A DNA stretch of 28,901 nt, from positions 1-28,901 of IMG/VR virus record IMGVR_UViG_3300025873_000029; one strand, given 5' to 3'. Within the stretch, counting starts at the first letter, position 1. Each line of letters starts with the position of its first letter. Of this stretch, positions 1,685 to 25,065 are shown piece by piece. The DNA is from a virus. Position numbers and translations under genes: made by a program. Under the pieces are notes generated by a model. It saw only the letters and a program-made list of their open reading frames with translations, was not told the origin of the DNA and did no database searches.

Positions 1685-2321
1685 GCAACTTAATAGAATA
1701 ATTAAGCCAAACGGAGCAATTGTTTTATTTGGCTCAGAGCCTTTTAGTAGTGCATTAAGGATGAGCAATATAGATAATTACAAATATGATTGGATATGGA
1801 ATAAAAGCAATCCAGCAAATATAAATTGTGGAAATTTTCAGCCGATGAAATACCACGAGATAATAAGCGTTTTTTATAGTAAGAAAGGGATTTTTAATAA
1901 ACAAATGATAGAAAGAAGTAAAGAGGGAATTAAAACTATTAAAAATGTAAAAAAGAATAAAACATCTTTTAAACCTACTTTTAAAGACCTAAACTCTAAA
2001 GATAACAAAACAGAATATAGCAGCGAAAGATACAATACAAAATTAAAAAATCCGAGTTCACTTATTTTCTTTAATTCTGTACGACCTAAATCAAAAGAAA
2101 AGGTAAAACACCCAACACAAAAACCTTTAGCATTAATGGAATACCTTATTAAAACATACACAAACGAAAACGAAACAGTATTAGATTTTACTATGGGAAG
2201 TGGCTCTACGGGAGTAGCAGCAAAGAATCTAAACAGAAACTTTATAGGTATTGAGCAAGACGAAAATTACTTTAAAATTGCAGAGCAAAGAATAAAAGAA
2301 ACTGAATATAAATTGTTTTAA
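1545..2321 (+). CDS. DNA methyltransferase, copy 2 of tandem pair, with diverged central domain
   Basis: 258 residues with DPPYG at about 26-30 and DFTMGSGS at about 214-221. The first ~85 and last ~70 residues are nearly the same as in the preceding gene. Residues ~85-185 differ almost completely and are lysine- and asparagine-rich here. In beta-class enzymes this stretch carries target recognition, so the pair probably methylates two different sites. The gene starts 1 bp after the stop of copy 1 and its stop abuts the ATG of the large terminase. The C-terminus reads YKLF, as in copy 1. Confidence 0.88.
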   Translation: MKLYKGNCLEVMKNIPNGSIDAIITDPPYGTTACKWDSVIDFELMWEQLNRIIKPNGAIVLFGSEPFSSALRMSNIDNYKYDWIWNKSNPANINCGNFQPMKYHEIISVFYSKKGIFNKQMIERSKEGIKTIKNVKKNKTSFKPTFKDLNSKDNKTEYSSERYNTKLKNPSSLIFFNSVRPKSKEKVKHPTQKPLALMEYLIKTYTNENETVLDFTMGSGSTGVAAKNLNRNFIGIEQDENYFKIAEQRIKETEYKLF

Positions 2322-3866
2322 ATGAGTAAATATTATTTTGACAAAGAATCAGCATTAAGAGCAATAAGTTTTATTGAGAAATTTTGCAGCCATACAAAAG
2401 GCGAGTTAGCAGGAAAGCCATTTTTATTGGAGGATTGGCAAAAGGAAATTGTTGGAAATATATTTGGTTGGAAAGATGAGGAAACAAATCTAAGAAAATA
2501 CAGAACAGTATTTGTTGAAGTTCCAAGAAAGAACGGGAAAACAACATTATGTGCGGCCATCAGTTTATATATGTTATTTGCAGATAGTGAAAGGGGTTCA
2601 GAAGTTTATGCAGCAGCAGGGGACAGAAACCAGGCAGGAATTGTTTTTGAAATTGCAAAGGGAATGATATTAAATTCCCAAGAATTAACAAGCCGCTCCA
2701 AAGTGTTCAGAAATTCAATCACACATGAGGCAAAGGGAAATTTCTTCCAAGCAATAAGTTCAGACAGTAAAACAAAACATGGATTCAATGCAAACTGCAT
2801 TATTTTTGATGAGTTACACACACAGCCAAACAGGGATTTATGGGACACCTTAACAACATCAACAGGGAGCAGGAGGCAACCATTAACAATTGCAATCACA
2901 ACAGCGGGATATGATAGGCAGTCAATTTGTTATGAGGTTTATTCATATGCAAAGAAAGTGCAAGATGGAGTAATTGATGATGATACATTTTATCCTGTAA
3001 TATTTGAAGCGGATGATGAGGATGATATTACATTGGAGGAAACATGGAAAAAAGCAAATCCAAATTATGGGGTTTCGTTAAGGAAAGATTATATGCTCCA
3101 GGAATCAAAAAAGGCGGTTAATGTTCCATCATATCAAAACACATTTAAGAGGTTAATGTTAAATATTTGGACAGATTCACAAACGCAATGGATTGGCCAT
3201 GATGAGTGGGCGGGATGCAACCAGGATTTTGATTATTCAAGTTTGGAGGGAATGGAATGTTGGGGCGGTTTAGATTTAGCATCAACACGAGATATTAGTG
3301 CATTCGTTTTAGTTTTTAATGTTGAGGATAAAATTATTGTTTTGCCTCATATGTTTATCCCAAAAGATAATGCAAAGAAAAGAAGTGATAGGGATGGGGT
3401 TAATTACATGGAATGGATGAGGGATGGCCATGTAATAGGAACAGAGGGAGATGTTGCAGATTACAATTTCATTAAAGCAAAAATAAATGAATTAAGCAAA
3501 AAATATAGGATTCAATCAATTGCTTATGATAGGTGGAACGCATCACAATTAGTAATTGATTTACAAAATGATGGAGCAAACATGGATCCATTTGGGCAGG
3601 GTTTTGTTTCAATGTCAGCACCAACAAAGGAATTGGAGAAACTTATTTTGGGTAAACAAATTGTGCATGATAACAATCCTGCAATGAATTGGATGTTATC
3701 AAATGTTGCAATACAGGAAGATCCAGCAGGAAATATTAAGGTTGCAAAAAATAAGAGTAAGGAGAAAGTTGATGGAATTGTTGCATTGGTAATGGCAATT
3801 GGGGAAATGATGACAGGGGAAGATGTAAACAGCATTTATGATGGTAGGGGATTATTAATTTTATAA
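2322..3866 (+). CDS. terL: Phage terminase large subunit (Terminase_1 type ATPase-nuclease)
   Basis: 514 residues, normal length for the family. Walker A is VPRKNGKTT at about residues 67-75 and Walker B is CIIFDELH at about 159-166, together forming the packaging ATPase. TTAG near 193 follows as the usual coupling motif. The C-terminal nuclease begins around GGLDLAS (about 316-322), whose Asp is a predicted metal ligand. The protein translocates DNA into the prohead and cuts it. Its P27-type partner is at 313-789. In HK97-like phages this combination usually goes with cos packaging, which fits the HNH gene at the far right end. Confidence 0.95.
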   Translation: MSKYYFDKESALRAISFIEKFCSHTKGELAGKPFLLEDWQKEIVGNIFGWKDEETNLRKYRTVFVEVPRKNGKTTLCAAISLYMLFADSERGSEVYAAAGDRNQAGIVFEIAKGMILNSQELTSRSKVFRNSITHEAKGNFFQAISSDSKTKHGFNANCIIFDELHTQPNRDLWDTLTTSTGSRRQPLTIAITTAGYDRQSICYEVYSYAKKVQDGVIDDDTFYPVIFEADDEDDITLEETWKKANPNYGVSLRKDYMLQESKKAVNVPSYQNTFKRLMLNIWTDSQTQWIGHDEWAGCNQDFDYSSLEGMECWGGLDLASTRDISAFVLVFNVEDKIIVLPHMFIPKDNAKKRSDRDGVNYMEWMRDGHVIGTEGDVADYNFIKAKINELSKKYRIQSIAYDRWNASQLVIDLQNDGANMDPFGQGFVSMSAPTKELEKLILGKQIVHDNNPAMNWMLSNVAIQEDPAGNIKVAKNKSKEKVDGIVALVMAIGEMMTGEDVNSIYDGRGLLIL

Positions 3867-3870
3867 AATT

Positions 3871-4080
3871 ATGGACAATAAAATATTAGCATTATTAACA
3901 CCAGAGGGATTTGATGACAGATTTTGGGATGTTGCATCACAAACAAAAACCTATAAAAAAGCATATGAAATTGTAGAGGAAGAATGTGAGGAACATTTCA
4001 ACAGGAGGCGATATTCAGACTACAATAGTTTCAGAAATTGCAGAGATAAGAGGTTAAAAAGAGTGCAAAAAACAATTTAA
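3871..4080 (+). CDS. Hypothetical protein following terminase
   Basis: 69 residues, charged and predicted mostly helical, with an acidic middle (EEECEEHF) and a basic end (RDKRLKRVQK). It starts 5 bp after the terminase stop and is the last gene before a 190-bp non-coding stretch, so it belongs to the terminase transcript. The family was not recognised. Position between terminase and portal suggests a packaging accessory or nothing structural; no function is claimed. Confidence 0.6.
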   Translation: MDNKILALLTPEGFDDRFWDVASQTKTYKKAYEIVEEECEEHFNRRRYSDYNSFRNCRDKRLKRVQKTI

Positions 4081-7385: not shown

Positions 7386-7964
7386 ATGAGAGCATTTAAA
7401 GTAATAACAGTAGCGAGTTCGCAAGTTTTAACAACAGCAGAAGTTAAAGAACATCTGAAAGTTGATACAACAGCGGATGATACATTGATTGACAATTTAA
7501 TTTTGGCGGCAACAAGTAGTTGCCAAGAATATACAAACAGATTTTTTATTACAACTGAAATTACACAGTATGGAGATAATTGGAGTGATGTTTCAGAATT
7601 ATTTAAAAGTCCTGTTCAATCAGCATTGTTTAATGTTAAATATTGGGACACAGCAGGAACATTGCAAACTTTAGGCACAACAAAATATACTTTAGATAAT
7701 GTTTCGCAACCTGCAAGATTAGTTCCATCACCTGATGAAAGTTGGCCATCACTTATTGATGGGTTAAATGCTATTGAAATAAATTATAATGTTGGAGTTG
7801 ATAGTGCAGGTGATGTTGACAATGCTATAAAACAGGCGGTATTATTAACTATTGGGCATTGGTATCAGAATAGGGAGGCGGTTATTGTAGGGAGGCAAGT
7901 AAATGAAATGCCAATGAGTGCAAAATATTTGTTGGATCAATATAAAATCCAAGTAATAAGATAA
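7386..7964 (+). CDS. Head-tail connector protein (gp6-like, Phage_connect family)
   Basis: 192 residues. The N-terminal LTTAEVKEHLKVDTTADDTLIDNLILAA is the signature helix pair of gp6-like connectors, in which short helices follow a LKxD turn. The C-terminal AVLLTIGHWYQNREA helix is also typical. The protein forms a ring under the portal as the first layer of the neck. It follows the capsid terminator and its stop overlaps the ATG of the head-tail adaptor, so these neck genes are translated together. Confidence 0.8.
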   Translation: MRAFKVITVASSQVLTTAEVKEHLKVDTTADDTLIDNLILAATSSCQEYTNRFFITTEITQYGDNWSDVSELFKSPVQSALFNVKYWDTAGTLQTLGTTKYTLDNVSQPARLVPSPDESWPSLIDGLNAIEINYNVGVDSAGDVDNAIKQAVLLTIGHWYQNREAVIVGRQVNEMPMSAKYLLDQYKIQVIR

Positions 7965-8284
7965 TGCAAATTGGCGATTTAGATAGGAGAATCAGAATTG
8001 AAGTTCCAACTAGAACAGCAAACAGTTATGGGGAGGAAACTTTAAGTTGGGCTGCATATCGTAATGTTTGGGCAAAAATGGAATGGAGGGGAGGAAGTGA
8101 AAAAGAGGAAACGCAAAGAATTACAGCAACATCAAAATTAGTTTTTACAATCAGAAATTTAGATATTAGCATAAACGAACAAAACAGAATAAATTATGAA
8201 GGCAAATCTTATTATATTAAAGTAATTAATGAGATTGAGGGGAGAGAAAGTTTTTTGGAATTAGAAACAGAACAAAAAGACTAA
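7964..8284 (+). CDS. Head-tail joining/closure protein (SPP1 gp16-like)
   Basis: 106 residues with the family start IGDLDRRIRIEVPTRTAN, a central YRNVWAKMEWRGGSE, and an ending GKSYYIKVINEIEGRESFLELE. This is the small beta-barrel adaptor that closes the neck after packaging. Length is normal. Its ATG overlaps the preceding stop and its own stop directly precedes the next ATG. Confidence 0.85.
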   Translation: MQIGDLDRRIRIEVPTRTANSYGEETLSWAAYRNVWAKMEWRGGSEKEETQRITATSKLVFTIRNLDISINEQNRINYEGKSYYIKVINEIEGRESFLELETEQKD

Positions 8285-8818
8285 ATGGCAGGGACAACAT
8301 CAGTTGGGGGACAATCAGCACAGGCATCAAAATCATGGATTGAAGTTGATCCAGGAAATTTAAGAGCAATTGATAATATGTTTAAACAATTACCAAAACA
8401 AGTTGATAAAAACAAAGTTTGGGTTAAGTTTTGGAGGGAAAATTCCAAACCATTGCAAAAAGCAGCAAAAAGCAATGCACAGGGATTAGGAGGAACAGGG
8501 CAGTTGGCAAAAAGTGTTGGTTTTTTTACAACAAAAAGCAGCAGAAAATACAATGGCGGATATGTTGGCCCAAGGGTAAAAGGAGCATTTAGAAGTAAAG
8601 CAAAAAGCGGATATTATGGTGCGTGGGTTGAATATGGAGGGGATGTTAATTTTGGAGGTAAAGGAACAGGAAAAAATCAATCATGGATGGCAGATGCATG
8701 GGGTTCAGCACATCAGCAAGTTTTAAACAATGGAATGCGATCAGCAGAAAAGATATTTGTAAAAGCAGTTAAAGTGCATGAAAGGAGATTGGCAAAATAC
8801 GGAAAACTAGGATATTAA
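8285..8818 (+). CDS. HK97 gp10-like head-tail/minor tail protein
   Basis: 177 residues. LPKQVDKNKVWVKFWRENSKPLQKAAKS followed by a Gly-rich basic segment and YYGAWVEYGGD resembles the gp10-like family, in which a pair of helices precedes a loop-rich region and the aromatic YGxxVEYG motif. Members form part of the connector-tail junction. Position between the adaptor and the tail-completion gene is the standard one. The call rests on motif and synteny. Confidence 0.75.
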   Translation: MAGTTSVGGQSAQASKSWIEVDPGNLRAIDNMFKQLPKQVDKNKVWVKFWRENSKPLQKAAKSNAQGLGGTGQLAKSVGFFTTKSSRKYNGGYVGPRVKGAFRSKAKSGYYGAWVEYGGDVNFGGKGTGKNQSWMADAWGSAHQQVLNNGMRSAEKIFVKAVKVHERRLAKYGKLGY

Positions 8819-9934
8819 ATGAAAAGTGGATTAGCAATATATGATGTTTTAAGCAATGATTCTGATGTTTCAGCATTAGTTGCTACAAGAATATTTCCAA
8901 ATGTTGCCAAAAACGGAACAACATTCCCATTCATTATTTATGATGTTGAATCAGAAAGCCCAGAAGATTCAAAGGATGGGGTTGCAACATTAGATGTTGA
9001 TAGCGTTATGGTTTCGGTTTACTCAAAAACATACTCTGAGGCATCAGATTTAGCAAGAAAGATAAGAACAGCATTAGACAGGAAAAGCGGAAGTTATGGA
9101 GGGATTGATGTGCAGTCAATTCAATATAATGGTTATAATGATTTATTTGATGACAACACAAGTGATGAGGGCGTTTATCGTAAAGCATTAGATTTTAGAA
9201 TTAGAATCATTAACACTATTGAAACTGTTTGGGCAAACACATATTCATTAGAATTTGATGGAGTGGATGATTATTTGAATTTGGGAGATAGTAACGATTT
9301 TTCATTTGGGGATGGTTCAGAAGATAGTGCATTTAGTGTTTCATTATGGGCAAAAATAAATGAGGGATCACAAACAGCATTATTTGCTAAGTCAGCAACA
9401 AATAAAGAATTTCATGTTGTAACAAATTTTTCTGATTTATTAAGAATAAGACTATATGATAACAGCACAGGAGGTTACATTCAAAGCCAAATAGATGCAG
9501 CAGTAAATGAAAGCGAATGGGAAAACTATATATTTACTTATGATGGGACAGGGAGTCAAACAGGATTAAATATTTATGTTAATGGGAGTAATGTTGCACA
9601 AACCAAATCATCCAGCGGAAGTTATGCAGCAATGGAAAACACAGCATCAGAGTTAAGAATTGGATCATCAGAACAAAATAGTTTTTATTTAGATGGAAAT
9701 ATTGATGAGTTCGCGTTATTTAATATAGAGTTGTCATCAATACAAGCGACAGCAATTTACAATAGTGGAGTCCCAAATGATTTGGAGGCACACACAGGAT
9801 TGGAGGGATTATGGAGAATGGGAGATCCAACAGGAACAGGGGTTTATCCTACAATTACAGATGACAGTTCAAATTCTAATAATGGAACAATGACAAATAT
9901 GTCAAGTGGCGACATAACAACATCCACACCGTAA
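8819..9934 (+). CDS. Tail-completion protein (DUF3168-like) fused to a LamG-like jellyroll domain
   Basis: 371 residues in two parts. Residues 1 to ~132 match the tail-completion/terminator family (DUF3168): IYDVLSNDSDVSALV, IFPNVAKNGTTFPFIIYD, and a VSVYSKTYSEASDLARKIR helix. Stand-alone members are about this size. From ~137 a concanavalin/LamG-like domain begins with YSLEFDGVDDYLNLGD and continues with FSVSLWAKI, WENYIFTYDG, ELRIGSSEQNSFYLDGNIDEFALFN and an ending GLWRMGD. These are standard LamG strands and usually bind carbohydrate or decorate surfaces. The fusion is in one continuous frame with no frameshift. It would place a lectin-like knob at the top of the tail. Confidence 0.85.
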   Translation: MKSGLAIYDVLSNDSDVSALVATRIFPNVAKNGTTFPFIIYDVESESPEDSKDGVATLDVDSVMVSVYSKTYSEASDLARKIRTALDRKSGSYGGIDVQSIQYNGYNDLFDDNTSDEGVYRKALDFRIRIINTIETVWANTYSLEFDGVDDYLNLGDSNDFSFGDGSEDSAFSVSLWAKINEGSQTALFAKSATNKEFHVVTNFSDLLRIRLYDNSTGGYIQSQIDAAVNESEWENYIFTYDGTGSQTGLNIYVNGSNVAQTKSSSGSYAAMENTASELRIGSSEQNSFYLDGNIDEFALFNIELSSIQATAIYNSGVPNDLEAHTGLEGLWRMGDPTGTGVYPTITDDSSNSNNGTMTNMSSGDITTSTP

Positions 9935-10161
9935 TGAATGAAAATACATATATAATTTTACCAATTGAGGAATTGGATTACATTAATTTTAATCAAGTGA
10001 TTGAATTAAAGAAAACTATAAGATACAATTTAACAAACACAGAGTTCATTATTAAATTTTATGGCGACACCCCAACAGATTTAAAAGAATATAAAAAATA
10101 TACACATTCAGAAATTTTAGATGTAATAAATAATCCAGGAAATGGATGGTTAAAAATATAA
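9934..10161 (+). CDS. Hypothetical protein in the tail operon
   Basis: 75 residues, acidic to neutral, starting IILPIEELDYINFNQVIE, with a mixed alpha/beta look and a C-terminal THSEILDVINNPGNGWLKI. Its ATG overlaps the stop of the LamG fusion by one base. The family was not recognised. It is not an obvious virion protein and may be a late accessory factor. Confidence 0.55.
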   Translation: MNENTYIILPIEELDYINFNQVIELKKTIRYNLTNTEFIIKFYGDTPTDLKEYKKYTHSEILDVINNPGNGWLKI

Positions 10162-10163
10162 AT

Positions 10164-10328
10164 ATGAGATACGAATTATTAAAAGATTGGCCAAGCAAAA
10201 GACATGGCAAAACAATCAGAAAAGGAACATTTGTTATAATAACAAAAAAAGAGGAATTGGAGCAATTGATTGAGTTGGAATGCATACCAAAACCAAAAGA
10301 AATTAAAAAGAAAAAAGTAAAGAAATAA
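10164..10328 (+). CDS. Small basic hypothetical protein
   Basis: 54 residues from the ATG at 10164, which lies directly after the preceding stop; an upstream in-frame ATG at 10146 would overlap more and is less likely. The protein has a short beta-rich part (KTIRKGTFVIITKKEE) followed by a very lysine-rich tail (EIKKKKVKK). It sits immediately before the tail tube gene. The family was not recognised; in position it resembles small head-tail or tail-tube accessory proteins. Confidence 0.5.
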   Translation: MRYELLKDWPSKRHGKTIRKGTFVIITKKEELEQLIELECIPKPKEIKKKKVKK

Positions 10329-10350: not shown

Positions 10351-10782
10351 ATGGCAATATTAAATGGAACAGATATTAAGGTTTACGATAGTGGAACGGG
10401 TATCTTAGTGGCATACGCACAAAATGGGAGTTTAAACATCAATCATTCATTAAGGGAAATCACATCAAAAGAATCAGCAGGATGGAAAGAATCTTTAGAG
10501 GGGTTAAGAGATTGGAGTGTTGATTTGGATGGAGCATATGCATGGACAGATGCAGCAGGATCAGCAGTAACAAATTCAGCAGATGAGTTGTTGGCGACTC
10601 ACATATTAGCAAGAACAGCATTAACAATTAAATTTGGAAATGTAGCAGGAGCAACAGGCGACACAGTTTACAATGGAAGTGTTTATTTAACATCATTCTC
10701 AGTTTCAGCAGGAACAGAGGACACAGCAACTTATTCATTAAGCTTAGAGGGAACAGGCTTGATTACGCAAACAGTTTCGTAA
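10351..10782 (+). CDS. Major tail (tube) protein, TP901-1-like
   Basis: 143 residues. MAILNGTDIKVYDSGTG, the central GWKESLEGLRDWSVDLDGAY and the C-terminal TSFSVSAGTEDTATYSLSLEGTG are hallmarks of siphovirus tail-tube proteins with the TP901-1/gpV-like beta-sandwich. It polymerises as hexamer rings around the tape measure. It has an A-rich start region (AAAAAAGAAAGAAA-ATG) and a hairpin just downstream, consistent with high, separately tuned expression. Confidence 0.88.
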   Translation: MAILNGTDIKVYDSGTGILVAYAQNGSLNINHSLREITSKESAGWKESLEGLRDWSVDLDGAYAWTDAAGSAVTNSADELLATHILARTALTIKFGNVAGATGDTVYNGSVYLTSFSVSAGTEDTATYSLSLEGTGLITQTVS

Positions 10783-11518: not shown

Positions 11519-13856
11519 AGCAGTTGGTTTTTTAACATTTAATTTCGGTGCAAATATGGGTGGCTTTAATAAGGCCATGAAAAAAGCACAAAGAAGTGTT
11601 GGAAAGTTTGGGAAGTCAATGAAACGAATTGGAAGTTCCATGACTACAAATTTAACAATGCCAATTATTGGGTTGGGTGCAATTGCAATAAAAACATTTG
11701 CAGATTTTGAACAGGCAATGTTAAAAGTAAAAGCAGTAAGTGGTGCGACAGCATCAGAGTTCAAATCATTAGAGGCAAACGCAAAAAGATTAGGAAGTTC
11801 AACAATGTTTACAGCGACACAAGTTGCTGAGTTGCAATTGGAGTTATCCAAACTAGGTTTAACGCCAGAGGAAATAAACAAATCAACAGATTCAATATTA
11901 AGTTTAGCACAGGCAACAGGCCATGATTTAGCAGAAAGTGCATCAATAGTTGCATCAACAATGAACAGTTTTGGAATGGAGGCGAGTGAATCAGCAAAAG
12001 TTGCAGATATGTTTGCCGCTGCAAGTTCAAACGCAGCCATTGACATGGAGAAACTGAGTGCAGCAATGCCAACAGTTGGAGCAACAGCAAATGCGGTGGG
12101 AGTCCCTTTAGATGATTTAACAGCAATGATGATGACATTGGCAGATAGTGGAATGGAGGCATCAACAATGGGAACGCATTTAAGAAAAATATTTGTTGAG
12201 TTGGCAACTAAGGGAATCAGTTTTGAGGATGCCATGAATCAAATAAACACATCAACTGATAAAGTAACAACAGCAACAGGGTTATTTGGTAAAAGAGCAT
12301 TTGGAGCAGGTTTGATTTTAGCATCAAACACACAAAAAACATCAGAATATAATTCTGTACTAGACAAGTCGGCAGGGAAAGCCAAAGAAATGGCTGATAT
12401 CATGGATAGTGGAGCAGCAGGTGCAATGAGGCGATTAAAATCACAGGCAGAGGGAGTTGCAATTAGTTTGGGAGGAATGTTAATTCCTGTGTTCCAAAAA
12501 ATAATGGGCCTCATTCAAAAAGGTTTATCATGGTGGAGCAATTTGGATGGCGAAATGAAAAAGAACATTGTTACAATCGGTTTAATTGTTGCTGCAATTG
12601 GGCCTGTAATATCTATTGTGGGAACATTAGCAACAGCATTTGGAATGATTTTAAGTCCTGTTGGATTAGTAGTTGCAGCAATTGTTGCAGGAGGATATTT
12701 AATTTATCAAAACTGGGATCCAATTAAAAAACTAATTGTTGATGTTGCAAATTATTTTATTGATTTATATAATGAATCAATGATTTTCAGAGGTGCAATT
12801 CAATATATTATTATCACTTTTAAAAATTTATGGGCACAGGCAAAGTTTACATTCAATGCAATGAAAGGGTTGGTTACTGTTTTAATTGATTCATGGATTG
12901 GGCAATTTTCTGGGGTTGCCAAAGTTATAGAATCAGCATTAAAATTTGATTGGGATGGAGTAAAAGAGGGAGCATCAGAATATGGGGATGCGGTTGCTTA
13001 TGGAATTAAAGGTTCGGTTGATGTAGTAAAAAAAGAGGCTAAAATTTTTGGTGAGGAAATTGCTGAAAATTATAAGACAGGAATTGAGAATACATTATCT
13101 AGGGAAAAGATTGATTTCATAACTGAGGATGATGTGCAGGGTGCGGTTGATGGTGCAGCAGATGTTGCAATGGGCATATATGATAAAATAAAAGGAGTTT
13201 TTGCAGTTGGAACAGGAGGAAGTGGAGGAAGTGGAGGAAGTGGAGATGGGCCAACAATAATGCCAAAACTTGGGGAGGGTGAGGGTGGCCCAGATTTAAC
13301 TCCAAGAGTGTTTGCTCCTATGAATACAGAGTTAGAGAAAACAAAAACATTATTAGAGGTATTAGAGGAAAAATTTGGACTAACAAAAGAGGCAATGTTG
13401 GGTTTTGCAGAACAAACAGGAACAAGTTTAGCACAGGGAGCAGCAAGTTTTGCAGAGTATGGGGAACAAGTTAAAAACTCAATAAGAGAAGTAATAAGCG
13501 GTTTAATAGCACAGGGGGTTGCAGCAGCAGTAAGTGGTGCAATGAAAGCAGCAGGAATAAACCCAATAATGATTCCTATAATGGCAGGGTTGGCAAGTGG
13601 ATTAGCAAAAACCGCCTTTAGTAGTTTAATCCCTGCATTTGCAGATGGTGGGATTGTAAGCGGCCCAACTGTTGGATTGATGGGAGAATATGCAGGAGCA
13701 GGAGCAGGAAACCCTGAAGTTATTGCGCCTTTAAATAAGTTAAAAGGAATGATGGGAAGTGGGCAACAAAATGTTGTTGTTGAGGGCCGTATTAATGGAA
13801 ATGATATTTGGTTAAGTAATAGTAAAACAGGAGGGCAAAGACAAAGAGGAATTTAA
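11508..13856 (+). CDS. Tail tape measure protein
   Basis: 782 residues, the longest protein. It starts with a basic helical segment, then has a TP901-type core (FADFEQAMLKVKAVSGATASEF, LGSSTMFTATQVAELQ, MPTVGATANAVGVPLDDL), typical of phage tape measures. Hydrophobic helices run around residues 350-400 and 670-710. The C-terminus GPTVGLMGEYAGAGAGNPEVIAPLNKL is the usual tape measure ending. A 3x GGS linker (13215-13241) separates the middle from the C-terminal part. At about 0.15 nm per residue it would set a tail of roughly 117 nm, which is an estimate. Its stop overlaps the next ATG. Confidence 0.92.
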   Translation: MANKAVGFLTFNFGANMGGFNKAMKKAQRSVGKFGKSMKRIGSSMTTNLTMPIIGLGAIAIKTFADFEQAMLKVKAVSGATASEFKSLEANAKRLGSSTMFTATQVAELQLELSKLGLTPEEINKSTDSILSLAQATGHDLAESASIVASTMNSFGMEASESAKVADMFAAASSNAAIDMEKLSAAMPTVGATANAVGVPLDDLTAMMMTLADSGMEASTMGTHLRKIFVELATKGISFEDAMNQINTSTDKVTTATGLFGKRAFGAGLILASNTQKTSEYNSVLDKSAGKAKEMADIMDSGAAGAMRRLKSQAEGVAISLGGMLIPVFQKIMGLIQKGLSWWSNLDGEMKKNIVTIGLIVAAIGPVISIVGTLATAFGMILSPVGLVVAAIVAGGYLIYQNWDPIKKLIVDVANYFIDLYNESMIFRGAIQYIIITFKNLWAQAKFTFNAMKGLVTVLIDSWIGQFSGVAKVIESALKFDWDGVKEGASEYGDAVAYGIKGSVDVVKKEAKIFGEEIAENYKTGIENTLSREKIDFITEDDVQGAVDGAADVAMGIYDKIKGVFAVGTGGSGGSGGSGDGPTIMPKLGEGEGGPDLTPRVFAPMNTELEKTKTLLEVLEEKFGLTKEAMLGFAEQTGTSLAQGAASFAEYGEQVKNSIREVISGLIAQGVAAAVSGAMKAAGINPIMIPIMAGLASGLAKTAFSSLIPAFADGGIVSGPTVGLMGEYAGAGAGNPEVIAPLNKLKGMMGSGQQNVVVEGRINGNDIWLSNSKTGGQRQRGI
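13215..13241 (+). repeat. Three 9-bp tandem repeats encoding a GGS linker in the tape measure
   Basis: GGAGGAAGT occurs three times in frame, encoding (Gly-Gly-Ser)x3, followed by GGAGAT. It makes a flexible hinge between the central part and the C-terminal helical region of the tape measure. Length changes by slippage would stay in frame. Confidence 0.85.
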
Positions 13857-15979
13857 TGGCATACGGAAAGAAATTTTACACATCTTATAAAAGCTATAAT
13901 GGTTGGGATTATTACATGGAATTTTTTATTAAGGATTATGTGGGTTCGGCAACTGAAATAAGTTTAGGGCAGGGTGGCCCATCAATTTCATATGATACGG
14001 ATTCAGAAGATAGGGATAACCCAATTTTGGCATCACAAATGGAAATTCCTTTTGTTGTTACTGATGGAACAGAAAATTCATTTATTGATGCATTAAGAGA
14101 TACATACCAAGAGAAAGATGTTTATGTTTATTTGTATCAATCTACAAGTGCAAACGAAAGCCCATTATGGAGTGGTTTTATTTTAATGGATTTAGGAGAT
14201 AAAGAGGATGTTTGGTATCCTTATGAGGTAAAATTAAAAGCAACAGATGGAATATCATTATTAAAAGACATTGATTTTGTTGAGGATGGAGCGACAAAGC
14301 CATATGATTCAGATGATATGTATTATGGGCCTGGAAGATTTACGCATTGGATTTCAAAAATATTAAGAAAAGTTGGAGCGGCAGGAACGGATGAGGGTTC
14401 GTATAATGATCCGCATTTCAGAACATCCGTTAATTGGTATAATGCAGAACACAGCGGAACAGCAGAGGCGGATGATCCGTTGTATTTAACAAAAGGGAAA
14501 ATCAGTTGGACACATTCAAGTGATGACAATGGGAATTACACACCAATGAACTCTTATGATGTTTTAAAAGAAATAATGAAAACATGGCATTGCAGGATTG
14601 TTTGGTGGAAAAATGTTTTTTGGATTATTCAAATCCCTGAATATAATGAAACAGAAAATGGAACAAATTTAAACCCAGATAATGTTCCAACAAGAGTTTA
14701 CACATTAACAGGAACACCTGATGGCGATAGGGGATATTTAGGAGGGAAATATGAAACAAGATATGAGTTAATGATTGGAGCAGGAATTGACAAATTAACG
14801 GGAACAACCTATCAGTTTTATCCAAGATTAAAAAGCGTAACAGCCGAATATTTAACAGGGGGAGGTTCAAATTATTATGGAGGCTTCCCAACATGGAACG
14901 GAACAACATTAGACACACCATTTTTACAACAAACAATAATTGATGCCTCAGCAGCAGATGATTTGTATTTATCAATTCCATTAAATATGAACCAAGACAC
15001 AAATATAAACAGGATGGTGAGGATTTATTTTCGTCTAAAAGCAACAAATGGGGTGACAACAAAATGGTTACAATGGGATGATGGGACAGGAACATTCACA
15101 TGGGAGAACAGTAGTGGGACATTGTTTGATTTACCGAGGTTTGAGGGAACAATTTTTGGGAACAATCCCCAGCAAATTTTAGGTTTTAATGAAACAATCC
15201 CAACAGATGCAGCATTTACAGGAGCATGGAATTTTGAAATATCAACAGATGATTCAGATTGGGGAACAATTTACGCATCAATGTTTTTTTCACAGGATGC
15301 GGATATTGGTTATGGAACATTTATTTTAGATCCGCAAGATTCTACTCCTGGAGGTGATCCTGCAAATGTTACATGGACAAACATTCCTGGAACATCAAAT
15401 CCATTTGAGGGACAATTTTTAACATTAAATTCATCAGCAGGATTGAACATTGCAGGGCAAACAATATTAGTTGAAACAGCGTTAAGTGATTCAGCAAACC
15501 ATGATTTTGAGAAAATGCAATGGGGAGATTCACAGGATGCAACAGATACAGGAAATCTTTTAATTTGGGATGGTTCGGCATGGGTGCAAAGTGATTTTGC
15601 AGGAGAATGGGGAGTTGGAACATTGACAGGAACAGCCAGTTTTACAAATTTAATGTTGGAGGAATTTATGAAAGGGCAATCATCAAACATTCAAATTATT
15701 AATACTAAATTAATGGTTAGTGTAAGCACAAAAGATGATGATGATGGAACATTGAGCGTTCCAAATTACATCAATCCTGTTGGGAGAATTAGGGAATCAG
15801 TAATGGGAGATATTAATATTTATGTATTTAAAAGAGGGAAATTTAACACAATGTTTGATGAGTGGGAATATGAGGGTTGGAGCATTAAGGATGAAACACC
15901 AGGATTAACAACAACAACAACAACAGTTTGGAGTCCGAACGGGCCAATGGAAACTGATAATGGAACAATAGGATTGTAA
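13856..15979 (+). CDS. Large tail-tip/baseplate protein
   Basis: 707 residues directly after the tape measure, where siphophages encode distal tail and hub proteins. The N-terminal ~150 residues (YYMEFFIKDYVGSATEISLG, then DNPILASQMEIPFVV, then SPLWSGFILMDLGDKEDVWYPYEVKLKATDG) look like a distal-tail beta domain, and the rest is beta-rich and aromatic like receptor-binding or carbohydrate-binding modules. A run of six Thr followed by VWSPNGPMETDNGTIGL forms a flexible C-terminus. No enzyme motif was recognised. Identification is mainly by position and composition. Confidence 0.6.
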   Translation: MAYGKKFYTSYKSYNGWDYYMEFFIKDYVGSATEISLGQGGPSISYDTDSEDRDNPILASQMEIPFVVTDGTENSFIDALRDTYQEKDVYVYLYQSTSANESPLWSGFILMDLGDKEDVWYPYEVKLKATDGISLLKDIDFVEDGATKPYDSDDMYYGPGRFTHWISKILRKVGAAGTDEGSYNDPHFRTSVNWYNAEHSGTAEADDPLYLTKGKISWTHSSDDNGNYTPMNSYDVLKEIMKTWHCRIVWWKNVFWIIQIPEYNETENGTNLNPDNVPTRVYTLTGTPDGDRGYLGGKYETRYELMIGAGIDKLTGTTYQFYPRLKSVTAEYLTGGGSNYYGGFPTWNGTTLDTPFLQQTIIDASAADDLYLSIPLNMNQDTNINRMVRIYFRLKATNGVTTKWLQWDDGTGTFTWENSSGTLFDLPRFEGTIFGNNPQQILGFNETIPTDAAFTGAWNFEISTDDSDWGTIYASMFFSQDADIGYGTFILDPQDSTPGGDPANVTWTNIPGTSNPFEGQFLTLNSSAGLNIAGQTILVETALSDSANHDFEKMQWGDSQDATDTGNLLIWDGSAWVQSDFAGEWGVGTLTGTASFTNLMLEEFMKGQSSNIQIINTKLMVSVSTKDDDDGTLSVPNYINPVGRIRESVMGDINIYVFKRGKFNTMFDEWEYEGWSIKDETPGLTTTTTTVWSPNGPMETDNGTIGL

Positions 15980-16758
15980 TGATAAGAAGAAAGAACTCAG
16001 ATGTAGCGGCTAGAAACGCATTCTTTACAAGAACAACATCACACATCACAGGCGTAACAACTTATATTGATATTGTTGCAAATGGGATTGCAATGTTTAA
16101 AGATGGAGATTCTTTTTTATTATGTGATTTGGTTGGTAAAATATATCCATTAATTGTTGACGGGGATGTGGGTGCAAGTGACACTAGAATAAATATTGAT
16201 TCATATGATTTTGGACAGGATCAAGTTTTGGCGGGTGCATTAGTTTCTTTTGATGCAATAGACATGGTGCAAGAATATCAAAGAAAAACAAAGGGAACGG
16301 TTGGAGGTTTAGCAGTAACATCAATAGAATTAGGGCCATTGCATTCAGATGGAAATATTGATGGGGTTGATACAGAATATATTAAAATTCTTCCTAGAGA
16401 TTTCATGCCAAATGATGATCAATATAATAAAGGAATTGCATTTGATGAAACAGCAACAACAGGAGTTAAGGTATATAGTGCAGACACAGAATTATGGGCA
16501 TTTGTTCAAATACCATATGGAAAAGAGGCAACAGACTGTGAGGTTTATGGAAATAACACAAAGGTTGTTGATGTTTTTGAATTATCAATTGATGCAAGTG
16601 GAATAGGAACAGCAGTTGCAACAGGGAGTGTTGGCACGAGTTTTAGAATATCAACACCTGTTGCATCAGACACAACAAATTATTTAGGAATCAGAATTAC
16701 AATAACAGGAACGGCTCAAAGAATTTATGGAGGGAAGATTATACTAACAGATATATAA
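15979..16758 (+). CDS. Putative tail fibre or structural protein
   Basis: 259 residues, rich in Gly, Thr, Asp and Val with beta-strand patterning. The ATG overlaps the preceding stop. Its first part (TYIDIVANGIAMFKDGDSFLLCDLVGKIYPLIVDGDVGASD) resembles a small barrel. The second half (WAFVQIPYGKEATDCEVYGNNTKVVDVFELSIDASG, with the closing TGTAQRIYGGKIILTDI) looks like a beta-sandwich of the kind found on tail fibres. It is the last structural gene before lysis, the usual place for the receptor-binding protein. The family was not recognised. Confidence 0.5.
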   Translation: MIRRKNSDVAARNAFFTRTTSHITGVTTYIDIVANGIAMFKDGDSFLLCDLVGKIYPLIVDGDVGASDTRINIDSYDFGQDQVLAGALVSFDAIDMVQEYQRKTKGTVGGLAVTSIELGPLHSDGNIDGVDTEYIKILPRDFMPNDDQYNKGIAFDETATTGVKVYSADTELWAFVQIPYGKEATDCEVYGNNTKVVDVFELSIDASGIGTAVATGSVGTSFRISTPVASDTTNYLGIRITITGTAQRIYGGKIILTDI

Positions 16759-22441: not shown

Positions 22442-22809
22442 TAAAAGGATTTGAAACAATGACAGCCGATTTAAACGCACAAGAATTGGAATTGATGCCA
22501 ACCATCATAAAAGGATTAAAAACCAAGCACGGCAAAGATATGGCAGTTACAGGCGGTAAAATAGCAGATGCAGTTGGATTGAGTGGGATAAAAGTTCAGA
22601 AAATAATTAATGTGATTAGAGTTAAAAATTTAATTCCAGGTTTATGTGCGTGTGGCAAGGGTTATTTTATAGCCAATAACATTGAGGAATTGGATAACTA
22701 CATTATAAGTTTAAAGCAAAGGATAAAGGCACAGGTTGATGTTTTAAACGCATTAGAGCAACAAACAATTATGTTTGGAGGAACAGGGCAAACAACATTA
22801 TTTGAATAA
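22438..22809 (+). CDS. Winged-helix-like DNA-binding protein
   Basis: 123 residues. ELMPTIIKGLKTKHGKDMAV and then GGKIADAVGLSGIKVQKIINVIRVKNLIPGL read as a winged helix-turn-helix, followed by ACGKGYFIANNIEELDNYI as wing and connector. The C-terminal helix (LKQRIKAQVDVLNALEQQTI) is probably a dimerisation coil. It could be a replication protein or a transcription regulator, including a candidate for binding the dyad at 19341. It is followed one base later by a methyltransferase gene. Confidence 0.6.
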   Translation: MIKGFETMTADLNAQELELMPTIIKGLKTKHGKDMAVTGGKIADAVGLSGIKVQKIINVIRVKNLIPGLCACGKGYFIANNIEELDNYIISLKQRIKAQVDVLNALEQQTIMFGGTGQTTLFE

Positions 22810-22810
22810 T

Positions 22811-23428
22811 ATGATAAATTTACACAACATGGATTGCTTAAAAGCAATGAAAGAAATGCAGGATAATCATTTTCAATTAGCAATAGTTGATCCTCCTTAT
22901 GGAATAGGGGGTAAATTTAAAGGAGGGAAAAGTGGAAAAATGAATTTTAATGAAGTAGTTGATAAGGGGTGGGATAATGAAATTCCTAAAAAAGAGTATT
23001 TTGAAGAATTAAAAAGAGTTAGTAAACATCAGATAATTTGGGGAGGAAATTACTTTTTAGATAATTTAGGAAATACAAGATGTTTTATAGTTTGGGATAA
23101 AAAAATTAGTGAAGATTTTAGTTTAGCTATGTCTGAATTAGCCTGGACTTCCTTTGATAGGTTGGCTAAAATATTTAGAATGAGCGTACCTAAAACTGGA
23201 GGTAAAATACACCCAACACAAAAGCCCGTTAAACTTTATGAATGGCTTTTAATGAATTATGCGGAAAAGGGAAATAAAATTTTGGACACACATTTGGGGA
23301 GTGGATCAATTGCAATTGCATGTGATAATTTAGGATTTGATTTGGAGGGTTTTGAATTAGATAAAACTTATTTTGAGGCAGCAAGTAAAAGATTAAAAAT
23401 TCATCAATCACAAATAAAAATGTTTTAA
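22811..23428 (+). CDS. DNA adenine-type methyltransferase
   Basis: 205 residues from the ATG at 22811. DPPYG at about 27-31, HPTQKP at about 134 and DTHLGSGS at about 159-166 give a beta-class amino-methyltransferase with the SAM motif in the C-terminal half. It is shorter than the pair at 782-2321 and has a different middle, so its target should differ. The DPPY codons and the CACCCAACACAAAA stretch are identical in DNA to those of the pair. It ends in KMF followed at once by the ATG of the initiator gene. Confidence 0.85.
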   Translation: MINLHNMDCLKAMKEMQDNHFQLAIVDPPYGIGGKFKGGKSGKMNFNEVVDKGWDNEIPKKEYFEELKRVSKHQIIWGGNYFLDNLGNTRCFIVWDKKISEDFSLAMSELAWTSFDRLAKIFRMSVPKTGGKIHPTQKPVKLYEWLLMNYAEKGNKILDTHLGSGSIAIACDNLGFDLEGFELDKTYFEAASKRLKIHQSQIKMF

Positions 23429-23429
23429 A

Positions 23430-24101
23430 ATGGAGATAATAAGAGTAATAAAAAACAAAAACTATTCTACAATTAATAATGAAATATTAAGGGATAAAGG
23501 CATTTCATTAAAAGCAAAAGGTTTATTAATTACAATTTTAAGTTTGCCTCCAGGATGGGATTTAACAATTAGCGGGATGAGTGTTATAGTTAAGGAGGGT
23601 AAAAGAAGTGTTGCATCAGCAATTAATGAATTGATTGAGTTTGGATACATTAAAAGGAATGCAATTAAGAATGGAACAATGTTTGCAGGATATGAATATT
23701 TTGTTTACGAATCCCTGAAATGCGGTTTTGTGGATACGGGAAATGGGGATACGCAAAATGTGGATACGCAAAACAGCACACAATTAAATACTTATAAAAA
23801 TAAAACCTTAAATAATAAAGTAAATATTAATGGGGGGAGATTTAAAAAACCTTTAATTTCTGAAATTTCAAATTACATTGATGAAAGAGGGAGTTTAATT
23901 AATGCAAACAAATTTTATGATTATTATGAATCAAATGGTTGGAAAGTTGGAAAAAACAAAATGAAGTGTTGGAAAGCAGCAGTTAGGAATTGGGAGAATA
24001 TGCGAAAAGAAAAGGGCCAAATTGAATCAAAAGTAATGGAAAGATTATCAAGCCATGACAAAGCAAAACAAATGTTAAAAAATATGCACAATGGAAATTA
24101 A
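23430..24101 (+). CDS. Replication initiator-like protein with winged helix
   Basis: 223 residues. The N-terminal winged helix, GISLKAKGLLITILSLPPGW then LTISGMSVIVKEGKRSVASAINELIEFGYIKR, is the common start of phage O/DnaD-type replication proteins. A linker with two DTQN repeats follows, then a C-terminal module FYDYYESNGWKVGKNKMKCW that in such proteins helps recruit the host helicase. It presumably marks the origin, which in lambda-like systems lies inside the initiator gene; short GGATACG-GGAAATGGGGATACG repeats at 23733-23770 are candidates. It overlaps the next gene by 11 bp. Confidence 0.7.
   Translation: MEIIRVIKNKNYSTINNEILRDKGISLKAKGLLITILSLPPGWDLTISGMSVIVKEGKRSVASAINELIEFGYIKRNAIKNGTMFAGYEYFVYESLKCGFVDTGNGDTQNVDTQNSTQLNTYKNKTLNNKVNINGGRFKKPLISEISNYIDERGSLINANKFYDYYESNGWKVGKNKMKCWKAAVRNWENMRKEKGQIESKVMERLSSHDKAKQMLKNMHNGN
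23733..23770. repeat. Three GTGGATACG/GGGGATACG repeats in the initiator gene, candidate iterons
   Basis: GGATACG or GGGATACG-type units recur three times (about 23733, 23747 and 23761) in the linker part of the initiator gene, encoding VDTGNGDTQNVDTQN. Phages with lambda-O-like initiators keep origin iterons in this linker. AT-rich DNA follows (23780-23830), as expected for an unwinding region. Origin function is inference. Confidence 0.4.
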
Positions 24102-25065
24102 AGAAATAAACAAAGTATTTAATATTGATTTTTTAAACAATGATTTGCCAGATAAATGTGCAAATTTGATTATTGCAGATCCTCCTTATTACAAAATTAA
24201 AGGGGAGTTTGATTTTATATGGAAAACCTTTGATGATTATTTAAAAGATGTTGAAAAATGGGCAATTGAATGCAAAAGATTATTGGCAGATAATGGAACA
24301 TTATTTTGGTATGGGGATGATAAAAATATTGCATATTCTCAAATTATTTTTGACAAATATTTTAATTTAGAAAACAGTTTGGTTTGGTATAAATATAATC
24401 TAAGAGGTGGAATGTTTGGAAGTGTTGGAGGAGACAATGTAAGATGTTTCCCAATATGCACAGAAAGAATTTTAATGTATTCTTTAGAAAATTATAATTT
24501 AACAGGTTGTATTTTTACAGTAAGGGATTACATCAGAAATGAAATAATAAGAGCAAAAGGAAAAATTATTTTAAAACATGTAAATGAGGCATTGGGAACA
24601 GCAACAAATGGCGGTGGGGTTGCATCAGCATGTTTAAGTTTAGACAAAGCAGAGCCAACAATGTTTACAAAAGAAATGTATTTAAAATTGAAATTATGGT
24701 TAAATAATGGGAAAGATTATGAGTATTTAAGGAAAGATTATGAGGATTTAAGGAAAGATTATGAGGATTTAAGGAGGCCATTTAATAATAAATTAAATTT
24801 GAATGAGGTTTTGCAATTTAACACTAACACAAATAAACAATTTGAACATGAAACAGTTAAGCCAGAAACATTAACAAGAGCATTAATTTTAACATGTAGC
24901 AGAAAAGATGATTTAGTAATTGTCCCATTTGCAGGAAGTGGCACAGAATGTGCAATGAGTGTTAAGGAGGGTAGAAAATTTATTGGTTATGAAATCACAG
25001 AAAAACATGCAATAATGAGTCAAAAAAGAGTTAATGAGATATTAAAACAACCAAAATTATTTTAA
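24091..25065 (+). CDS. DNA methyltransferase with heptad-repeat insert
   Basis: 324 residues. DPPYY at about 30-34 and FAGSGT at about 280-285 define a beta-class amino-methyltransferase. KPETL ahead of motif I replaces HPTQKP. The central part has three copies of the heptad KDYE(Y/D)LR (DNA repeat 24712-24774), followed by RPFNNK, probably a helical spacer next to the target-recognition region. It overlaps the replication initiator and ends in PKLF directly before the next ATG. It is the fourth methyltransferase in the window and the most different. Confidence 0.85.
   Translation: MEIKEINKVFNIDFLNNDLPDKCANLIIADPPYYKIKGEFDFIWKTFDDYLKDVEKWAIECKRLLADNGTLFWYGDDKNIAYSQIIFDKYFNLENSLVWYKYNLRGGMFGSVGGDNVRCFPICTERILMYSLENYNLTGCIFTVRDYIRNEIIRAKGKIILKHVNEALGTATNGGGVASACLSLDKAEPTMFTKEMYLKLKLWLNNGKDYEYLRKDYEDLRKDYEDLRRPFNNKLNLNEVLQFNTNTNKQFEHETVKPETLTRALILTCSRKDDLVIVPFAGSGTECAMSVKEGRKFIGYEITEKHAIMSQKRVNEILKQPKLF
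24712..24774 (+). repeat. Three 21-bp tandem repeats inside a methyltransferase gene
   Basis: AAAGATTATGAGTATTTAAG-G (24712-24732) is followed by two identical copies differing from it only by GAT for TAT (24733-24753 and 24754-24774). Each unit encodes seven residues, so gain or loss of a unit keeps the frame and would alter the length of a helical spacer by one heptad. Confidence 0.92.

Follow-up and report, generated by a model that had tools for sequence, protein, structure and literature searches.

A tail terminator fused to a LamG-like lectin domain, and its LamG–g75 cassette, in IMG/VR phages

We find that a phage tail terminator and a LamG-like lectin fold are joined in one 371-residue protein, and comparisons across loci show that the LamG domain, far from being confined to this protein, belongs to a LamG+g75 cassette that has been repeatedly gained, lost and exchanged, g75 being a 75-residue protein of a new small family. 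In our best reading, to which we give a probability of roughly 0.6, six exchangeable carbohydrate-binding LamG adhesins would be shown at the head-tail joint, and g75 would be their assembly partner; here we infer the hexamer, the exposure on the virion, the carbohydrate binding and the role of g75.

The fusion gene and its predicted structure

The window, the whole stretch of DNA analysed here, is a 28.9-kb virus record from IMG/VR. The fusion gene is a single uninterrupted frame running from ATG to TAA (Table 1), which confirms the fusion and rules out both a programmed frameshift and separate genes. Pfam places Tail_completion_gp17 (PF11367) at residues 6-130 (E 4e-15) and Laminin_G_3 (PF13385) at residues 147-307 (E 1.1e-19), both above their curated cut-offs, so that the sizes given in the original prediction, ~130 and ~235 residues in one frame, were right. 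Its name for the product, tail-completion protein, does not match current usage, in which the product is a tail terminator of the lambda gpU / SPP1 gp17 type and tail completion, or Neck1, is the gene directly upstream. The tail terminator family phrog_347 matches the fusion protein with an E of 6.8e-62, aligning residues 1-161 to profile positions 1-151.

Table 1 Features of the neck region in the window
Feature	Position	Strand	Basis or remark
Neck genes upstream of the fusion	7386-8818	+	Pfam, PHROGs
Head-tail adaptor	7386-7964	+	Pfam, PHROGs
Head closure	7964-8284	+	Pfam, PHROGs
Neck1/tail completion	8285-8818	+	phrog_5
Complete gene of the terminator–LamG fusion, 371 aa	8819-9934	+	ORF, Pfam, PHROGs, AlphaFold2
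Tail terminator domain, residues 1-132	8819-9214	+	PF11367, phrog_347, fold match
Interdomain linker, residues 133-140, containing the left cassette edge	9215-9238	+	pLDDT <50 at 134-139; homology break
LamG-like lectin domain with its conserved C-terminal tail (NNGTMTNM...), residues 141-371	9239-9931	+	PF13385, fold match
LamG+g75 cassette, ~935 bp	9216-10150	+	Missing as one unit in L058, L060, L085
g75, 75-aa protein, new small family	9934-10161	+	LamG directly upstream in 80/80 loci
Major tail (tube) protein	10351-10782	+	PF06199, phrog_1407

An AlphaFold2 model of the fusion, built with 40 homologues (mean pLDDT 77, pTM 0.59), contained two domains, the first terminator-like and the second beta-rich, with a break between them at residues 134-139, where pLDDT fell below 50, leaving the placement of LamG on the ring unfixed. 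Residues 1-132 matched solved terminators at Z 14-16, including those of RcGTA (6tba_4A; Z 16.1, rmsd 2.3, 126 residues aligned), Bxb1 (9d94_Ia; Z 14.4), phiXacJX1 (9lbn_K; Z 14.4) and phiCD508, while residues 139-371 resembled the LG domain of PAPP-A (Z 20.8), pentraxins (PTX3; Z about 18) and laminin LG4-5 (Z 15). The predicted structure thus delivers, beside the terminator-like fold, the LG/pentraxin-like fold that had been forecast as a jellyroll. The terminator lies between head closure and Neck1 on its upstream side and the major tail and tape measure proteins on its downstream side, an order conserved across loci, which together with the terminator fold match backs the earlier assignment of the fusion protein to the head-tail joint. 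No sheath gene was seen in the window's phage.

Several other features were observed along the way. A 60-residue lysine-rich gene without a PHROG family lies between the terminator and the major tail protein (10146-10328) and recurs in several relatives whether or not they have the LamG cassette, and two consecutive major-tail-protein-like genes replace the single one in L008, L010-L013, L210, L212 and L213. Past the tape measure gene, two large genes at 13856-16758 contain no Pfam domain; the 707-residue product has phrog_23570 (virion structural protein) as its sole match and the 259-residue product has none, leaving the window without a recognisable receptor-binding protein. The 29-kb record also encodes four DNA-methyltransferase-like genes (phrog_67; 782-2321, 22775-23428 and 24091-25065), two of them in tandem directly before the large terminase gene.

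Recurrence and exchange of the LamG–g75 pair

The original prediction had proposed a search for the fusion in related phages, and the first two scans of IMG/VR recovered it in 57 loci, with a bare terminator of ~133-138 residues in 63 others, a few of them truncated by a contig end. Among the window's close relatives, LamG is under purifying selection, with dN/dS of 0.17-0.22 against the window compared with 0.13-0.16 for the terminator. Because it recurs in 57 loci and is held by purifying selection, the fusion is neither a product of chance nor an assembly error. No fusion was found among isolated phages in the phage collection searched, and among the matches listed from 395 Flavobacteriia genomes the only terminator was the stand-alone one of G001, nearly all the others being the LamG half alone.

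The identities of the two halves to the window diverge, 41% for the terminator and 75% for LamG in L010, 76% and 41% in L083, and 83% with LamG absent in L054; terminator and LamG have different histories. On the terminator tree the fused state requires at least six changes, five of them forced by well-supported branches, and on the LamG tree 10 changes, five forced, these counts being approximate since both trees contain long branches and the LamG bootstrap is unsettled; taken together, the trees require at least five to six gains or losses of the fused state. In the LamG tree the window's domain groups with L200, a LamG gene without a terminator. Relocation of LamG in place of its loss was considered and rejected, as the domain was found neither in the whole records (24-27 kb) of five bare-terminator relatives nor in that of L054, records that may be fragments.

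Other arrangements were also encountered. L151 encodes a 653-residue protein (2023-3981) composed of a terminator and two LamG domains and followed by g75, and in L183 (2584-3864) LamG is joined to a different N-terminal part of ~180 residues, with g75 and then the major tail protein downstream. By eye, this N-terminal part resembles a 174-residue product that L021 encodes in a separate gene close to its LamG (4606-5127 of L021).

The borders of the exchanged segment are sharp. DNA homology to the window ends at 9213-9216 and restarts at 10151-10154 in L060, L058 and L085, which are clean empty sites where LamG and g75 are missing together, and in L054 it ends at the same left edge. No flanking repeats were found around the cassette, and a transposon-like insertion was rejected on this ground.

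Linkage between LamG and g75 is strict. The g75 gene was present in 52 of the 57 fused loci, three of the five exceptions ending shortly past the fusion gene, versus none of the 63 bare-terminator loci, and a scan with g75 by itself returned 80 loci, on contigs partly shared with the earlier scans, with LamG immediately upstream in every one. A scan with LamG by itself added 72 further loci, comprising seven with a terminator and adjacent g75, 45 with adjacent g75 and no terminator, two with g75 farther off and 18 without g75. Unrelated phages, too, carry the pair with no terminator attached, and the LamG domain is found in them as separate genes and tandem arrays.

No match to the g75 family rose above noise in Pfam, PHROGs or NCBIfam, ruling out that it is a known family of these databases, and although its model reached a pLDDT of 89, nothing stood out in a search of solved folds (Foldseek best E 0.73; VIA best Z 4.1). 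A gene directly 3′ of its putative client is the arrangement of assembly chaperones, and it holds for g75 and LamG throughout the 80 loci. From this linkage alone, this LamG type probably has in g75 its dedicated partner for folding or assembly.

A diversifying LamG core and its proposed function

Across the sister clade L015-L053, very little changes in the terminator or in the final ~40 residues, whereas the LamG core between them is highly variable. Median dN was 0.086 for the terminator, 0.384 for the LamG core and 0.097 for the C-terminal tail, with median dS of 0.65, 0.96 and 0.54, respectively, and dN/dS below 1. This pattern fits a diversifying ligand-binding core, aided by recombination.

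Tail terminators are hexamers in RcGTA (PMC7296036) and T5 (PMC11784142), and by carrying this stoichiometry over we expect a six-subunit ring here, formed by the N-terminal domain and placed between the head closure and the tail tube. On every subunit a short flexible linker would hold LamG, producing a collar of six knobs, and the LamG core, as an accessory adhesin, would reversibly bind host-surface carbohydrate or the host's exopolysaccharide, with committed receptor binding and injection staying with the tail-tip proteins. The LamG segment and the adjacent g75 would form the exchangeable cassette, and g75 possibly works on the constant C-terminal tail of LamG, in the manner of tail-fibre assembly chaperones. 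As a caution against C-terminal display of LamG, the C-terminus of the T5 terminator contributes to subunit contacts, and aberrant polymers resulted from a His tag placed at that end (PMC11784142). Two further cautions are that certain LamG folds have a protein ligand or a purely stabilising role, and that the cassette is dispensable, since relatives without it exist.

Extending this reading, LamG and g75 might constitute a transferable two-gene adhesin cassette, a diversifying lectin with an obligate small partner of a new family, which moves between virion carriers (the tail terminator, a different small protein such as that of L183, and stand-alone or tandem LamG proteins), so that accessory specificity for host glycans could be swapped at the neck with the tail tip untouched; we put this forward tentatively, at slightly less than even odds.

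The original prediction had suggested that LamG may bind host capsule, mucus or polysaccharide and so help the phage stay near its hosts. In this vein, the displayed LamG might provide general retention in mucus, in marine gel or on glycan-coated particles, of the adherence-to-mucus type, and not recognition of host cells. Its anatomy would be identical to that of our best reading, and a neck position need not be the first to contact the host, as far as we can judge. However, the LamG core diversifies fast and has been swapped between near-identical terminators, making host-specific ligands likelier than one common ligand, and a variable core suits shifting ligand specificity better than a single generic mucus-binding role; we therefore regard general retention as unlikely.

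The domain sits here on a scaffold protein, and it could be a structural collar bracing the head-tail joint with no external ligand, much as extra domains on some other terminators are structural, for example in sheath contacts of myophages (PMC11784142, PMC13324602). Yet the cassette is absent from close relatives (L058, L060 and L085); moreover, surfaces that contact neighbouring proteins are expected to be conserved, whereas the LamG core varies most, and the separate genes and tandem arrays of the same domain in unrelated phages also count against a bracing role, which we consider improbable. Least credible, and in our view very improbable, is that LamG is cleaved off to act as a free protein with the shared frame merely an expression device, for although the linker is predicted to be flexible and stand-alone LamG+g75 pairs exist, the terminator fusion has originated or been exchanged on several occasions, the gene sits among virion genes, and we know of no cleavage motif at the joint.

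Relation to known systems and host

The PHROG 347 profile, annotated only as tail terminator, has 394 positions and matches the LamG half separately from the terminator half (E 6e-21, profile positions 212-392), so that terminator-LamG fusions are already clustered there and the fusion is less novel than the original prediction had implied. Its exchange and its g75 partner, like the fusion itself, are not noted in that entry, and no paper on LamG at a tail terminator was found among the open papers searched. New here are the recurrence of the fusion, the exchange of modules, the sites that lack the cassette and the strict linkage of LamG to g75.

The best-described cases of carbohydrate-binding modules (CBMs) carried by neck and tail scaffold proteins come from lactococcal phages. 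In 936 lactococcal phages, CBMs on the neck passage and major tail proteins bind host cells, and the CBMs of the neck passage structure (NPS), TpeX and evolved Dit resemble the present case in sitting on a neck or tail scaffold in some phages only (PMC6669499). There, BppA-like CBMs sit on neck passage, major tail and distal tail proteins, whereas here the carrier is the terminator and the domain is LamG, and the available part of that account reports no g75-like partner (PMC6669499). A lactococcal-type NPS has a separate collar protein and a helical fibre with a trimeric CBM at its end; here the lectin follows directly past the terminator and a short linker with no helical fibre, and the fusion may work like an NPS, though it is not one itself.

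Neck passage proteins likewise exchange their C-terminal receptor-binding domains while the neck protein that bears them stays constant, in an account whose text mentions neither tail terminators, laminin-G nor lectin (PMC10684548). Large terminators with an extra domain are also known from myophages (phiCD508 gp53, PVC16), in which that domain has a terminator-like fold for sheath/tube linkage in contrast to the lectin fold here (PMC11784142, PMC13324602). In the isolated cyanophage S-SKS1 (208 kb), the four-LamG protein SWZG_00005, a tandem array with no terminator domain, is directly followed by the g75 homologue SWZG_00004, the same order of LamG and g75 as in the window.

A Bacteroidota host, as originally proposed, is plausible on moderate evidence. 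One contig of a Flavobacteriales MAG, a contig that may be a wrongly binned phage, carries a related terminator, and Shine-Dalgarno-like motifs at only 5 of 37 gene starts together with 33% GC in the window fit a Bacteroidota-like pattern. The case is weakened by the terminase, which is closest to those of Streptococcus phages, at 47% identity.

If our best reading is true, a terminator lectin exchanged together with its partner gene in many uncultured phages would make the neck a second, evolvable site of host recognition outside the tail tip, and the finding offers a testable function for g75, an otherwise unnamed gene family.
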